Under the pieces are notes generated by a model, which had not been told where the DNA came from, did no database searches, and was given only the letters and a program-made list of their open reading frames with translations. Shown piece after piece: positions 4,713 to 37,373 of a stretch of DNA of 64,000 nt (positions are counted from its first letter, which is position 1; every line of letters starts with the position of its first letter). The position numbers and the translations under genes were made by a program. Source of the stretch: Pelagibacteraceae bacterium AG-414-E02 (GTDB lineage: Bacteria > Pseudomonadota > Alphaproteobacteria > Pelagibacterales > Pelagibacteraceae); assembly GCA_003214615.1 (NCBI GenBank), contig QCLK01000001.1, forward strand, positions 124,001 through 188,000. Reading direction: 5' to 3'.

Positions 4713-5090
4713 TTATTTACATGGCAAGCCGGAATTTTTCCAGCCATCACTTTCAGGATTGCCTAAAAAACCATCTGAAATATTAATACATTTATAATTT
4801 TCTTTTTCTAAAAGTTCCGCAGCAGCTTGGGATCTTACGCCGCCCATGCACATAGTTAATATTTCATTTTCTTTTTGAATATTTAATTTTTTAAAATCTT
4901 CAATAAAATTTTCATTAAAAGTTTTATCGGAAAATTGGATAGTTAAAAAATGAGTTTTCAAACCAATTTTCTCACCATCTGGTTTTCCATCAATGTTCCA
5001 CTCTTCCTCGGTTCTAACATCAATCAACACAGAATTAGGATTGTTCTTAATGTAATCCTCTATGTCTTTACTTGCCAACTGTTTAATCAT
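4713..5090 (-). CDS. Rhodanese-like sulfurtransferase
   Basis: Single-domain rhodanese of 125 residues with no signal peptide, so cytoplasmic. The opening SVLIDVRTEEEW is the conserved substrate-fold motif. The active-site loop is CMGGVRS, with the persulfide-forming cysteine. Such proteins pass sulfane sulfur to an acceptor or detoxify reactive sulfur; the acceptor is unknown. It lies 36 bases downstream of the betaine-homocysteine methyltransferase on the same strand and would share its SAM-controlled transcript, which suggests a sulfur amino-acid link. It converges on the HD oxygenase gene with only 12 bases between the stop codons. Confidence 0.9.
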   Translation of the reverse strand: MIKQLASKDIEDYIKNNPNSVLIDVRTEEEWNIDGKPDGEKIGLKTHFLTIQFSDKTFNENFIEDFKKLNIQKENEILTMCMGGVRSQAAAELLEKENYKCINISDGFLGNPESDGWKNSGLPCK

Positions 5091-5126: not shown

Positions 5127-6212
5127 TTAAGCTTTATCTTGATAGTCTCTTTGATGTTTTGGAATTCTTTTGTGAGTTCCAAATAGCATATGAGTAGACA
5201 TATCTTCTTTATATTTACTTGCTGGCACCGTTAATCCTACAGATTCTGCTACCTCTCTAATCAACATTGGGTTTGCTCCACAACAAACGCCTAGATAATT
5301 TATGCCTATCTTAAAAGCCTCCTTTGCAAACTTACCTATTTCATACCTGTTACATTGCATTGGATCCAATGCTGTTGGAAATGGTGTTTTGTGGGGCGAA
5401 TGACATGTACATCCATTGTTATCCGGCAAGTTAAAAAAAGTAGGATGATTTTTTGTAGTCCGAAAATTAATAGGCAAAGCAGCTACGTGGCACTTTAAAG
5501 CTTTCCTGATTTCTTTCAGATAAGGTATCATTGTATTAGGCCCTCTAAAGCAATTCATTCCTACTACATCACCTCCTCGTTGCTCTAACTCTTTACAAGT
5601 TTCAACTATTGAAACACCATCACGCATAACATTTTCCCCCATAGGCGCAATTGTGATGACAGTTGGAAGGCCTGTTTTTTTCATAACCTTCAAAGCTGTA
5701 TAAGCTTCTTCGGCATAGTAAAAAGTTTCACCGATCAGCATATCTGCTCCTTCATCCACCGCCCAGCCAATCATTTCTGAAAACATTTTTTCAACTTCTT
5801 TATGCGTTCTTGGATCTTTATCATTCCAAATATTTGAATTTGAAATATTTCCAGCCATTAAATTGGGTTCCTTTCCAATCGGACTAGAGGCGACTTTTTT
5901 TGCGATTTTCAATGCAGACCTATTAAGTGGTTCTAATAGTTCTTCTTTGCCAATAACGCGCATTTTTTCACGATGTCCATTATATGTAAAAGCTTGAACG
6001 ATATCAGAGCCCGCATGTTGAAAATCTCTGTGCAAATTTTCTAGAGCTTCCGGATGATCCAAAGAAACCATCGGAACAAACTCTCCTGAGGACATATATC
6101 CCCTTCTTTCTATTTCAAAAAGAAATCCCTCTGCACAAATTACTGGTCCTGAATTTAATCTTTCGATTAAATTTCTCTTTTTATTTTTAGACATCTCTAA
6201 ATCGTTTTTCAT
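5127..6212 (-). CDS. bhmT: Betaine-homocysteine S-methyltransferase-type enzyme
   Basis: Zinc-dependent methyltransferase of 361 residues that would make methionine from homocysteine, with glycine betaine as likely methyl donor and dimethylglycine as by-product. The zinc-binding cysteines of the family are C221 in GMNCFRGP and C310-C311 in GVCCGANP. The start at 6212 is supported by a strong GGAGGA site 8 bases upstream. Its 200-base leader holds two consecutive SAM-binding-type pseudoknots, so methionine supply should repress it. The neighbouring TmpAB-like pair would produce glycine betaine, which makes the betaine specificity attractive. S-methylmethionine-type homocysteine methyltransferases are the alternative family branch. 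Confidence 0.88.
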   Translation of the reverse strand: MKNDLEMSKNKKRNLIERLNSGPVICAEGFLFEIERRGYMSSGEFVPMVSLDHPEALENLHRDFQHAGSDIVQAFTYNGHREKMRVIGKEELLEPLNRSALKIAKKVASSPIGKEPNLMAGNISNSNIWNDKDPRTHKEVEKMFSEMIGWAVDEGADMLIGETFYYAEEAYTALKVMKKTGLPTVITIAPMGENVMRDGVSIVETCKELEQRGGDVVGMNCFRGPNTMIPYLKEIRKALKCHVAALPINFRTTKNHPTFFNLPDNNGCTCHSPHKTPFPTALDPMQCNRYEIGKFAKEAFKIGINYLGVCCGANPMLIREVAESVGLTVPASKYKEDMSTHMLFGTHKRIPKHQRDYQDKA

Positions 6213-6220
6213 GTCTATAC

Positions 6221-6277
6221 TCCTCCGTTTTTAGTGCTTTGACGAATGTCGGGTGCACAATTCGGTTAAATACCCGG
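6221..6277 (-). promoter_or_regulatory. SAM-II/SAM-V-like riboswitch pseudoknot over the bhmT ribosome binding site
   Basis: Read on the minus strand, CGGGT (within 6272-6277) pairs with ACCCG (6254-6250). The loop contains TTTAACCGAATTGTGC, close to the SAM-II loop signature. Loop bases GTGC (6258-6255) pair with GCAC (6237-6234), making an H-type pseudoknot. It is followed by CTAAAAACGGAGGA, which contains the Shine-Dalgarno sequence at 6226-6221. Ligand binding would therefore hide the ribosome binding site. The marine setting and position fit SAM-V, but the class was assigned by eye. Confidence 0.8.
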
Positions 6278-6298
6278 TTTTTTGTTGAATAGAATCTC

Positions 6299-6327
6299 AA
6301 AAAAAAACCACCGGCTAAAGCGGTGGT
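6299..6327 (-). terminator. SAM-controlled intrinsic terminator in the bhmT leader
   Basis: On the minus strand ACCACCG (6327-6321) pairs with CGGTGGT (6313-6307) around a 7-base loop, followed by nine U residues (6307-6299). The 5' arm and loop contain CGCTTTAGC (6322-6314). This is perfectly complementary over 9 bases to GCTAAAGCG (6348-6340) at the 3' end of the upstream aptamer. The two pairings are mutually exclusive, so the upstream segment is a built-in antiterminator. Confidence 0.85.
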
Positions 6328-6339
6328 CTATGTGTGCGT

Positions 6340-6390
6340 CGCTTTAGCAGGATTTTTAAAGCGCCCGCAATCTGATTCAACTCGGCGCTA
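6340..6390 (-). promoter_or_regulatory. SAM-II-like riboswitch aptamer, first of two in the bhmT leader
   Basis: On the minus strand AGCGCC (6389-6384) pairs with GGCGCT (6365-6360), closing an 18-base loop ending in GATTGCG. The following strand TTTAAAAATCCTGCTAAAG carries the GCTAAA element of SAM-II. Four bases CCTGC/GCGG can form the pseudoknot helix. The aptamer begins about where transcription should start. Its GCTAAAGCG is either held by the ligand-bound pseudoknot or free to open the downstream terminator, which predicts switch-off by SAM. Confidence 0.75.
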
Positions 6391-6396
6391 TATAAA

Positions 6397-6425
6397 AGTG
6401 TAACTAATGCTATATATATTGTCAA
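6397..6425 (-). promoter_or_regulatory. Sigma-70-type promoter for bhmT
   Basis: A consensus -35 TTGACA (6425-6420), a 17-base spacer and -10 TACACT (6402-6397) lie on the minus strand. Predicted transcription start is near 6390, the first base of the SAM-II-like aptamer. The agreement of promoter and aptamer edge supports both calls. Confidence 0.7.
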
Positions 6426-6456: not shown

Positions 6457-8403
6457 TTGGAGAATTTGCTAAAAAAAGAGAAGAGCCCTTACCTTAAACA
6501 ACACGAGAACAATCCAGTGCATTGGTATCCCTGGGGTAAAATAGCACTAAACAAAGCTAAGGAATTAAGAAAACCGATTTTTTTAAGCGTAGGATATGCT
6601 AGTTGCCACTGGTGCCATGTGATGGCACACGAAAGTTTTGAAAGTCAAAGTACTGCTGCAATAATGAATGAAAAATTTATTAATATTAAAGTTGATCGTG
6701 AAGAAAGGCCCGACCTAGATCATGTTTTTCAAAAAAGTTTATCAATTATAACGGGAACGCCTGGTGGATGGCCTCTATCATTATTTTTAGACGAAAACGG
6801 TATTCCTTTTACCGGCGGTACCTATTTCCCTCCAAAAGAAATGCATGGTATGCCTTCTTTTATAAATATTCTTAATCAAGTTTCAGATTTCTATGGAAAA
6901 AATAGAAGTCAAGTAATTGAACAAGCTCCACAAATAAAAAGTGCTTTTCAGCAAATTCAAAAAAAAACTTCAGTAATAAGACAGAGTCTGGTCCCTTATC
7001 TTGAAAATATGGTTAACTATATTGACTATGAATGGGGAGGTTTTCAAGGAAGCCCGAAATTTCCACAATTTTATGTCTTTGAAAGTTTTTTATATTTTTA
7101 TAAGAAAACTAAAAATAAAAAATTTTTTGACGCTGTAAAAGTTTTGCTTAAAAATGTTTGTTCAAGAGGTCTCTATGATCATTTATTAGGAGGCATTGCA
7201 CGTTACTCGACGGATGATAGATGGATAGCACCTCACTTTGAAAAAATGCTTTATGACAACATTTTATTTGTAAATATATTAGGTCAATTTTACCTTGAAG
7301 AACCAAACGACTACTACAAAGATAAACTTATTCAAACTGTAGAGTTCATTAATCAATCATTTAAAAACAAAGAAAATCTTTTGGGCTCTGCATATGATGC
7401 GGACAGCGAAGGAATTGAAGGAAAATATTATGTTTGGGAAGATAAAGAGTTAAAAAATATACTTAAAGAAGATTATGATTTCTTTGTCAAATATTTCGAT
7501 ATCTCGGAAAATGGTAACTGGGAAGGAAAAAATATTTTAATTGAAAAAAGTATTGGTCCTTCAAAAGAAGACAAGGAAAAGTTAAAGAAAATAAAGGATA
7601 AATTGTTATCAATAAGAGAAAAAAGGCCCATGCCTTTTTTTGATGACAAAACCCAAATTGATTTAAACGCATATTGGGTTAGTACTTTAATTTTTGTTGC
7701 AGAAGTACTTGATAACGAAGACTGGAGAAAACTTTCTAAATCGAATTATCAAATAATGAAAAAACTTACTAATGATGAGGTATATCATTGTTACAAAGAC
7801 AAAGAGGGAGTGAAAGTATTTCTTGAGGATTATGCTTATCTATCACAACTAATGATTAATTTGTACGAAGTAAGTGGCGAAATTAGTTTTTTAAATGATG
7901 CTCAAAAAATAAATCAAAAAACCTGGGATCTTTTTTACGATAAAAATAGTAAAATTCTTCAAAAAAATCCTATTGATGAAAATGATCTTTTCGTATCTCC
8001 AACTGATATAAGTGATCTCAATATACCCAATGGTAATAGTATATTTTTAATGAATTGCAAAAAACTCGAGATTATCACTGGTGAAAAAAAGTGGCAAAAT
8101 ATGACAAAAGAATTGACACAAAGTTTTCACTCATTTTTAAATTTGCATGCTACTCAAATGACTAGTTATTTAAAAAATTTGGATATGTGTGAAGAGTTAA
8201 CAAGTTTTACTTTTTTTGGAAATATTGAAAAAAATAAGGATTTGCATGAATATGTGAAAAGTAGATATTTAAAATCTTCTGTTATAATTTATAAAGAAGA
8301 TCCTAAAGATAGCTATCTTGTTGTTTGTAAAAATCAAACATGCTCAAATAAAATTAAAAGCATAAAAGATTTGAAATCTGTTGTAAGCAATTATGCCATA
8401 TAA
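6457..8403 (+). CDS. DUF255 thioredoxin-fold protein (YyaL/SSP411 family)
   Basis: Cytoplasmic protein of 648 residues. Residues 1-160 form the DUF255 thioredoxin-like domain with a CHWC motif (C50, C53) in the conserved SCHWCHVMAHESF segment. The rest is the alpha/alpha-barrel part related to N-acylglucosamine epimerases, with the conserved HFEKMLYDN and AYDADSEG motifs. The biochemical role of the family is not established. The start is TTG, preceded by AAGGAG at a good distance, which decides it. An EamA permease gene overlaps the 3' end by 11 bases. Confidence 0.92.
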   Translation: MENLLKKEKSPYLKQHENNPVHWYPWGKIALNKAKELRKPIFLSVGYASCHWCHVMAHESFESQSTAAIMNEKFINIKVDREERPDLDHVFQKSLSIITGTPGGWPLSLFLDENGIPFTGGTYFPPKEMHGMPSFINILNQVSDFYGKNRSQVIEQAPQIKSAFQQIQKKTSVIRQSLVPYLENMVNYIDYEWGGFQGSPKFPQFYVFESFLYFYKKTKNKKFFDAVKVLLKNVCSRGLYDHLLGGIARYSTDDRWIAPHFEKMLYDNILFVNILGQFYLEEPNDYYKDKLIQTVEFINQSFKNKENLLGSAYDADSEGIEGKYYVWEDKELKNILKEDYDFFVKYFDISENGNWEGKNILIEKSIGPSKEDKEKLKKIKDKLLSIREKRPMPFFDDKTQIDLNAYWVSTLIFVAEVLDNEDWRKLSKSNYQIMKKLTNDEVYHCYKDKEGVKVFLEDYAYLSQLMINLYEVSGEISFLNDAQKINQKTWDLFYDKNSKILQKNPIDENDLFVSPTDISDLNIPNGNSIFLMNCKKLEIITGEKKWQNMTKELTQSFHSFLNLHATQMTSYLKNLDMCEELTSFTFFGNIEKNKDLHEYVKSRYLKSSVIIYKEDPKDSYLVVCKNQTCSNKIKSIKDLKSVVSNYAI

Positions 8404-36113: not shown

Positions 36114-37208
36114 TTACCTCACATAACTTTTTTTATAAAACGGAAGTTCAGATATTTTGGCTTCATGCTTTTTTCCTCTAACTTCCAAAAAGACCTTTGT
36201 TCCGGGTTTTGAAAAATTTAATTTTACATAACCCATGGCAATAGGCCTGTTCACGCTTGGACCAAAAGTTCCACTTGTAATAGATCCAATTTCATTATCA
36301 TCATCAGAAAAAACTTTAACACCTTCTCTAGCTATAATTTTTCCTTCTGGTTTAATACCAACTCTTAACCTGCTTAGACTCCCATTCAAATCTGATTTAA
36401 TTTTTTCATAACCTACAAATCCACCTTCTTCTCTTCTTCTCTTAGATATTGCCCATTTAAGATTTGCTTCAATCGGATTTGTAGATTTATTTATATCATG
36501 ACCATAAAGACACAATCCGGCCTCTAATCTTAAAGTGTCTCTAGCTCCTAAACCAATTGGTTTTACATTTTGTGATATTAATTTTTTTGCAAGGTCTTCT
36601 GCTAATTCATTTGATATAGAAATTTCGAATCCATCTTCTCCAGTATAGCCTGATCTAGTAATATAAATATCTTCACCATTAAAATAAAATTTATTTCCAT
36701 TCATAAATTTTAAAGAAGAAACTCCACTAATTATTTTTTCTAATATTTGTGATGATTTTGGTCCTTGCAAAGCAATAAGTGACAAATTCTTATGTAAGGT
36801 TATTTTAAATTTATTTTTAAGTGCGTCATTAATTATTTTAAAATCGTTATTTTTACATGCGGCATTGAGAATAATATTAAAACCTTTTTCAACTTTAGTT
36901 ACAATTAAATCGTCATGGATTCCCCCATCTTCGTTGGTAAGGAAAGAATATTTTGATTGATTAAGTTTTATCTGACTTAGATCTATAGGAATAATTTTTT
37001 CTAATTCAATTGCTAGTTCTTCGTTTCCTTCTATTGATAATTGACCCATGTGTGAAACATCAAACATCCCTGCGCTACTTCTAGTTAGTTTATGTTCATT
37101 TACAATTCCTGAGGAATATTGTACTGGCATTTCGTAGCCAGCAAAAGGAACAAACTTTGCTCCAAGACTTCTATGATATTCGTACAATGCTGTTTTTTGC
37201 GTTTCCAT
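36114..37208 (-). CDS. gcvT: Aminomethyltransferase, glycine cleavage T protein
   Basis: Tetrahydrofolate-dependent enzyme of 364 residues that releases ammonia and forms 5,10-methylene-THF. Typical segments are FAGYEMPVQYSSG, FDVSHMGQL, SGYTGEDGFEI and GLGARDTLRLEAGLCLYGHD. It is the first gene of the gcv operon, with the glycine riboswitch ending about 10 bases upstream of the ATG. The very short spacing means the ribosome binding region lies next to the second aptamer. Confidence 0.97.
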   Translation of the reverse strand: METQKTALYEYHRSLGAKFVPFAGYEMPVQYSSGIVNEHKLTRSSAGMFDVSHMGQLSIEGNEELAIELEKIIPIDLSQIKLNQSKYSFLTNEDGGIHDDLIVTKVEKGFNIILNAACKNNDFKIINDALKNKFKITLHKNLSLIALQGPKSSQILEKIISGVSSLKFMNGNKFYFNGEDIYITRSGYTGEDGFEISISNELAEDLAKKLISQNVKPIGLGARDTLRLEAGLCLYGHDINKSTNPIEANLKWAISKRRREEGGFVGYEKIKSDLNGSLSRLRVGIKPEGKIIAREGVKVFSDDDNEIGSITSGTFGPSVNRPIAMGYVKLNFSKPGTKVFLEVRGKKHEAKISELPFYKKSYVR

Positions 37209-37219
37209 AATAACCCTTA

Positions 37220-37366
37220 TCAGCCCCCTCTGTCCTGGTACCTGAGAGATTTACTCCTTCGGTGAGGCAATGCCTTCTTTCCAGAGTTATTATGTACGGT
37301 CCTTTTGCCTGAGAGTTTCCGGGGTGGTTGCTCCTTCGGCGCCAATTAAATTGGTCTCTCCCGTAT
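37220..37366 (-). promoter_or_regulatory. Tandem glycine riboswitch upstream of gcvT
   Basis: Two consecutive aptamers are read on the minus strand. The first (about 37364-37295) starts CGGGAGAGACC and contains GGCGCCGAAGGAGCAA, then CTCTCAGGCAAAAGGACCG. The second (about 37290-37221) contains GCCTCACCGAAGGAGTAAA, then CTCTCAGGTACCAGGACAGA. GAAGGAGxAA and CTCTCAGG..AxxAGGAC are the glycine aptamer signatures. The short linker fits the cooperative tandem type. Glycine should turn the gcv genes on. Confidence 0.95.
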
Positions 37367-37373
37367 GATATGC

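Follow-up and report, generated by a model that had tools for sequence, protein, structure and literature searches.

A tandem SAM-II/SAM-V leader upstream of bhmT in a SAR11 bacterium: a probable two-stage SAM switch with a candidate antiterminator

How could one short leader connect two SAM aptamers to two separate steps in the expression of a single gene? SAR11 bacteria, which rank among the ocean's most abundant, depend on external reduced sulfur, and the leader described here would tie the SAM level to methionine supply at both of these steps. It spans about 180 nt on the minus strand of the window (the whole 64,000-nucleotide stretch of DNA that was analysed), which comes from a SAR11-type genome (1.14 Mb, 87% complete), and lies between a divergent DUF255/thioredoxin-domain gene (6457–8403, plus strand) and the regulated gene, bhmT (5127–6212, minus strand; PF02574, 5.6e-36). 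The latter encodes a 361-residue homocysteine S-methyltransferase with 75–91% identity to SAR11 and SAR86 relatives, and the bhmT relatives belong to the Pelagibacteraceae. A gene for a rhodanese-domain protein (4713–5090, minus strand; PF00581) follows 36 nt 3′ of bhmT and is probably co-transcribed with it. A covariance-model search of the 87% complete genome returned no SAM-V or SAM-II match outside this leader. Elsewhere in the window, a glycine riboswitch (69.7 bits; 37287–37373, minus strand) was observed 5′ of an aminomethyltransferase-like gene (36114–37208, minus strand), an arrangement also seen in other SAR11.

We consider it very probable that the leader is a two-stage SAM OFF switch before bhmT in this SAR11 (Pelagibacterales) bacterium; SAM binding, SAM-dependent termination and SAM-dependent translation are properties that we infer for the copy in the window. 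At low SAM, the strand CCUGCUAAAGCG would quit the SAM-II aptamer and pair with CGCUUUAGCCGG inside the terminator, and with this antiterminator formed there would be no terminator and transcription would continue. With SAM bound, the CCUGCUAAAGCG strand would be locked in the SAM-II pseudoknot, the terminator would fold, and transcription would end near 6299. As a second stage, SAM-V at the Shine-Dalgarno sequence would block translation of bhmT. A preliminary description of this DNA had proposed a consensus promoter, a SAM-II-like pseudoknot at the transcription start, a terminator and a second, SAM-II/SAM-V-like pseudoknot beside the ribosome binding site, acting as a transcriptional and then a translational switch. 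Each of these elements was located, with SAM-II 5′ of SAM-V, the terminator between them, SAM-V at the ribosome binding site and a sulfur-metabolism gene downstream, the layout of a tandem bi-mechanism riboswitch; the proposed order of control is supported by covariance models that match both aptamers (SAM-II slightly below its cut-off), by covariation in 56–71 relatives and by folding.

The leader begins with a sigma-70-like promoter (6425–6397), in which TTGACA (6425–6420) and TACACT (6402–6397) are separated by 17 nt. It matches the consensus at 10 of 12 positions, a quality expected by chance at about 1.2 sites in the window, and a TTGACA promoter with a spacing of 16 or 18 nt recurs in the nearest relatives. 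From this spacing, transcription is expected to start near 6390, one base ahead of P1 of the SAM-II aptamer (6390–6339). The classic SAM-II model (RF00521, SAM_alpha) matches 6398–6324 with 34.4 bits (E 2.2e-6 for the window), 1.6 bits below the curated cut-off of 36, and the other SAM-II model, RF01726, reaches just 15.8 bits. As a threshold set by a curator, the cut-off discriminates poorly in this case: the same RF00521 search of the genome of Candidatus Pelagibacter ubique HTCC1062 missed that strain's validated bhmT SAM-II and reported only its metX copy. In our judgement the element is a SAM-II aptamer despite the sub-threshold score, given its structural features: an H-type pseudoknot with P1 (6389–6384/6365–6360), the UUGC loop strand and the GCUAAA 3′ strand (6348–6343), together with the P2 core pairs G6368–C6347 and C6367–G6348 and the distal P2 pairs C6374–G6340 and U6375–A6339. 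Across 69 leaders, 99.4% of the cells of these pairs are paired, and three pairs, in P1 and at a distal P2 pair, show compensatory double changes, covariation on which we reject a chance match.

The marginal score could also be read to mean that SAM-V alone functions as a switch, whilst the SAM-II region with its terminator is a fixed attenuator or a decayed, non-sensing aptamer, and such a reading would agree with the silence of SAM-II in SHAPE and in-line probing of the full-length HTCC1062 RNA (PMC11508383). It is nevertheless quite improbable in our view: the SAM-II pairs are almost fully retained, and P1 and distal P2 contain double changes, which speaks against decay, truncated HTCC1062 SAM-II binds SAM (PMC11508383), and a dead element would not be expected to keep a covarying antiterminator and terminator.

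How, then, would the SAM-II aptamer reach the transcription machinery? Downstream of it lies an intrinsic terminator (6329–6299), with a core stem (6327–6321/6313–6307), the loop CUUUAGC (6320–6314) and a tract of nine U (6307–6299); its pairs are formed in 95.9% of cells in the 69 leaders, and shuffled sequence yields a mean of 0.1 terminators compared with the hairpin (6329–6305) and nine-U tract found here. The preliminary description had noted a perfect 9-base complement, GCTAAAGCG/CGCTTTAGC, between the end of the first aptamer and the terminator arm and loop. The match is indeed perfect, but its true extent is larger, as CCUGCUAAAGCG (6351–6340) can pair with CGCUUUAGCCGG (6322–6311) at 11 of 12 positions because CC (6351–6350) pairs with GG (6312–6311) of the terminator 3′ arm. 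Both arm and loop are touched, although seven of the nine bases fall in the loop and two in the 5′ arm, and the full 3′ strand runs from the 5′ arm through the loop into the 3′ arm. A 9-mer match to the antiterminator strand occurs in 4.5e-4 of terminator shuffles. The 5′ strand and SAM-II P2 have nine nucleotides (6348–6340) in common, so aptamer and antiterminator are mutually exclusive, and the suggested competition between them is supported by covariation in relatives and by ensemble folding. The two C's that precede the SAM-II 3′ strand are missing from the Rfam SAM-II consensus, are nearly constant in the leaders compared here, and pair with constant G's in the terminator 3′ arm.

Comparison of leaders argues that this helix has been maintained. 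Taking the DNA in front of 80 bhmT relatives, and adding HTCC1062 and two further genomes, we obtained 71 leaders with a terminator, 69 of which were aligned for covariation, with shuffled and slid structures as controls. The antiterminator is paired in 90.6% of cells, and 40 cells are changed on both sides, where shuffles give 12.1 (sd 2.7); no slid version exceeds 59.5% paired cells or three doubly changed ones. All 69 leaders form a pair at position 11 (C-G 46, A-U 22, G-U 1), and position 10 occurs as G-C in 43, U-A in 14 and A-U in two. Positions 10–12, which lie outside GCUAAA, change in step (GCG/CGC, UAG/CUA, ACG/CGU, GCA/UGC), and of 99 pairs there 92 are observed, whereas no swap of 5′ strands among the 33 distinct leaders yields more than 81. 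The 3′ side of position 11 also closes the terminator, and the 18 leaders without a standard terminator pair at this place keep the antiterminator pair. Parsimony puts the changes at position 11 at eight or more per side on the bhmT tree and at three to four on the leader tree; resolution is weak in both, leaving the number of independent events uncertain but greater than one. A clade comprising L047, L051, L082 and relatives carries one mismatch, at position 10, and the antiterminator is weakened in L048, L088 and L121. At the level of these alignments, aptamer, terminator and putative antiterminator are all evolutionarily conserved with compensatory changes. The match to the terminator loop might still be a functionless coincidence of chance or common descent, since the leaders are all related and SAM contact fixes the GCUAAA side, so that most positions vary on at most one side; we find this scarcely credible, however, given double changes at positions 10–12 in excess of both controls, repeated changes on two trees and the rarity of the 9-mer complement among shuffles.

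The antiterminator hairpin is predicted at −14.3 kcal/mol in the window, compared with −12.1 for the terminator; over all 71 leaders the mean energies of the two are about equal (−11.7 and −11.1), which, like the weakened helices of L048, L088 and L121, counts against the model. In nearest-neighbour ensemble folding, which includes neither pseudoknots nor kinetics, a window transcript ending at 6299 forms the antiterminator with a share of 0.96 and the terminator with 0.04, and barring 6348–6339 from pairing, which mimics SAM-bound P2, brings the terminator to 1.0. Once the transcript has passed the terminator and ends at 6285, the antiterminator share drops to 0.05, a further point against the model, and in the full leader ending at 6210 it is 0.985. 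The SAM-II loop contains GUUGAAU (6381–6375), complementary to AUUCAAC in the linker (6290–6284), and an alternative fold with this pairing dominates ensembles of transcripts ending near 6285; it is probably transient.

That the antiterminator is the predicted end state, both here and in HTCC1062 (about 1.0), fits another reading, in which the 12-nt complementarity folds the finished transcript, serving RNA stability or masking SAM-II after the decision, instead of acting in co-transcriptional antitermination. This would also explain a silent SAM-II in refolded full-length RNA. We think it unlikely, as the helix directly disrupts the terminator, covarying positions are common to terminator, antiterminator and P2, and a similar arrangement with unrelated terminator sequences precedes sister-family metX (L118, L119).

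Co-transcriptional antitermination, the reading we prefer, bears on a puzzle in HTCC1062, whose bhmT tandem agrees with the window in gene, order, type of terminator, tract of nine U and antiterminator strand, GCUAAAGCG. The two differ in that the window SAM-V abuts the bhmT ribosome binding site, with 23 nt from ACUAAA to AUG, compared with 81 nt and a second Shine-Dalgarno sequence in HTCC1062; the terminator loop of the window has 1 nt less, and the window bhmT comes from another SAR11 lineage. SAM affinities have been measured for the HTCC1062 tandem (1.2 µM for the bhmT SAM-II), and bhmT mRNA and protein increase on sulfur limitation (PMC5069961). Full-length RNA refolded in vitro contains a SAM-II that is unresponsive to SAM, which truncated SAM-II binds; the linker silences the aptamer in this construct, for which the authors had no explanation (PMC11508383). 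We mapped their numbering exactly, primer 3 (83–102) and contact residues U46, A47 and A49 all agreeing. Ensemble folding of the construct pairs C41–G52 with C66–G78 at probabilities of 0.98–1.0, and this antiterminator helix buries the three SAM-contacting nucleotides (U46, A47 and A49), making it a candidate explanation for the silencing. Given that SAM-II is silent in the refolded full-length RNA (PMC11508383), switching would need to occur during transcription. Primer 3 restores the SAM-II response though its site is outside the antiterminator helix (PMC11508383). Restoration by opening of the antiterminator is unsupported by ensemble folding (0.98 versus 1.0); more speculatively, the primer 3 duplex might stack on the end of the terminator stem, at U82, and tip the balance. 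The antiterminator recasts the puzzle, that SAM-II binds SAM when isolated yet fails to do so inside the complete leader, as a simple mutational question.

The second aptamer (6284–6220) matches RF01826 with 44.9 bits, above the cut-off of 41, and seven of its pairs show double changes in 56 relatives. It comprises P1 (6276–6272/6254–6250), P2 (GUGC 6258–6255/GCAC 6237–6234) and a short 3′ helix (CCG 6265–6263/CGG 6227–6225) that takes in part of the Shine-Dalgarno sequence GGAGG (6226–6222), itself 9 nt ahead of the bhmT AUG (6212–6210), as seen in the sequence and alignment. In the SAM-V of metY (PMC6061858), a short 3′ aptamer helix likewise takes in part of the Shine-Dalgarno sequence; the window adds a third pair, C6227–G6263, and has CGGAGG in place of AAGGAG.

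A different spacing was observed in about 25 relatives, where bhmT starts 70–90 nt past SAM-V (L051, L052, L071, L074, L078, L082, L084, L089, L095, L100, L106 and L108 among them). In these leaders the SAM-V Shine-Dalgarno strand (for example GGAGAAAAGA) has a complement of 7–11 nt farther downstream, UCUUUUCUCCA, and this element can equally pair, over 5–10 nt, with the Shine-Dalgarno sequence directly before bhmT; HTCC1062 (L113) shows this pattern in part. A possible Shine-Dalgarno/anti-Shine-Dalgarno/Shine-Dalgarno switch could thereby let SAM-V work at a distance. In L048, L091, L096 and L111, the SAM-V Shine-Dalgarno sequence (AAGGAGAAAAUG) opens a short reading frame (about 45 codons) ahead of the gene. 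This frame stops at the start codon of bhmT or slightly beyond it, which suggests translational coupling with bhmT. Tentatively, and with rather more doubt than conviction, we extend the model to the whole SAR11 tandem family, in which the covarying 12-nt helix would be the antiterminator and the cause of SAM-II silencing, and SAM-V of the long class would act at a distance via the anti-Shine-Dalgarno strand.

Related arrangements were seen beyond SAR11 bhmT. The metY gene (L123) and one further gene, perhaps metE-like (L121), are also preceded by SAM-II/SAM-V tandems that carry the same terminator. Complementarity similar to that of the antiterminator is present in sister-family metX leaders L118 and L119, as CAGCUAA with UUAGCUG or UUAGUUG and with a different terminator, where a simple fold does not favour the pairing, and also in L120, L121 (weakened) and L123. 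SAR86-type bhmT leaders (L099, L102–L105, L107, L109, L110 and L112) have a single SAM-II-like aptamer (L102 and L109 score 29–30 bits) and, after it, a conserved UUCCCAGGAUUUAA; neither a terminator nor a SAM-V was found in them.

The locus is a further member of a published tandem, whose two-level logic is already known. Tandem SAM-II/SAM-V leaders before SAR11 bhmT were reported by Poiata and colleagues in 2009, as cited in PMC5069961, PMC11508383 and PMC9481103, the HTCC1062 tandem is listed in PMC2704228, and 149 tandem bi-mechanism riboswitches with SAM-II followed by SAM-V were counted in 2022 (PMC9481103); the precedent named in the preliminary description was correct. The tandems of PMC9481103 are the same in kind as the window, the first aptamer terminating transcription and the second blocking translation, and that account, in its accessible part, gives a terminator and no antiterminator. 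We found no description of an antiterminator for the SAR11 tandem in the accessible literature, which represents the 2009 report through later papers. What is added here is an explicit putative antiterminator with evolutionary support, which would supply the SAM-II expression platform. In SAM-II riboswitches with a transcriptional platform, for example S. meliloti metZ (PMC9373788) and many metA/metX leaders of alpha-proteobacteria (PMC1273637), the SAM-bound pseudoknot is likewise predicted to free a downstream terminator; relative to these, the window adds a second SAM aptamer, and its terminator sequence is SAR11-specific.
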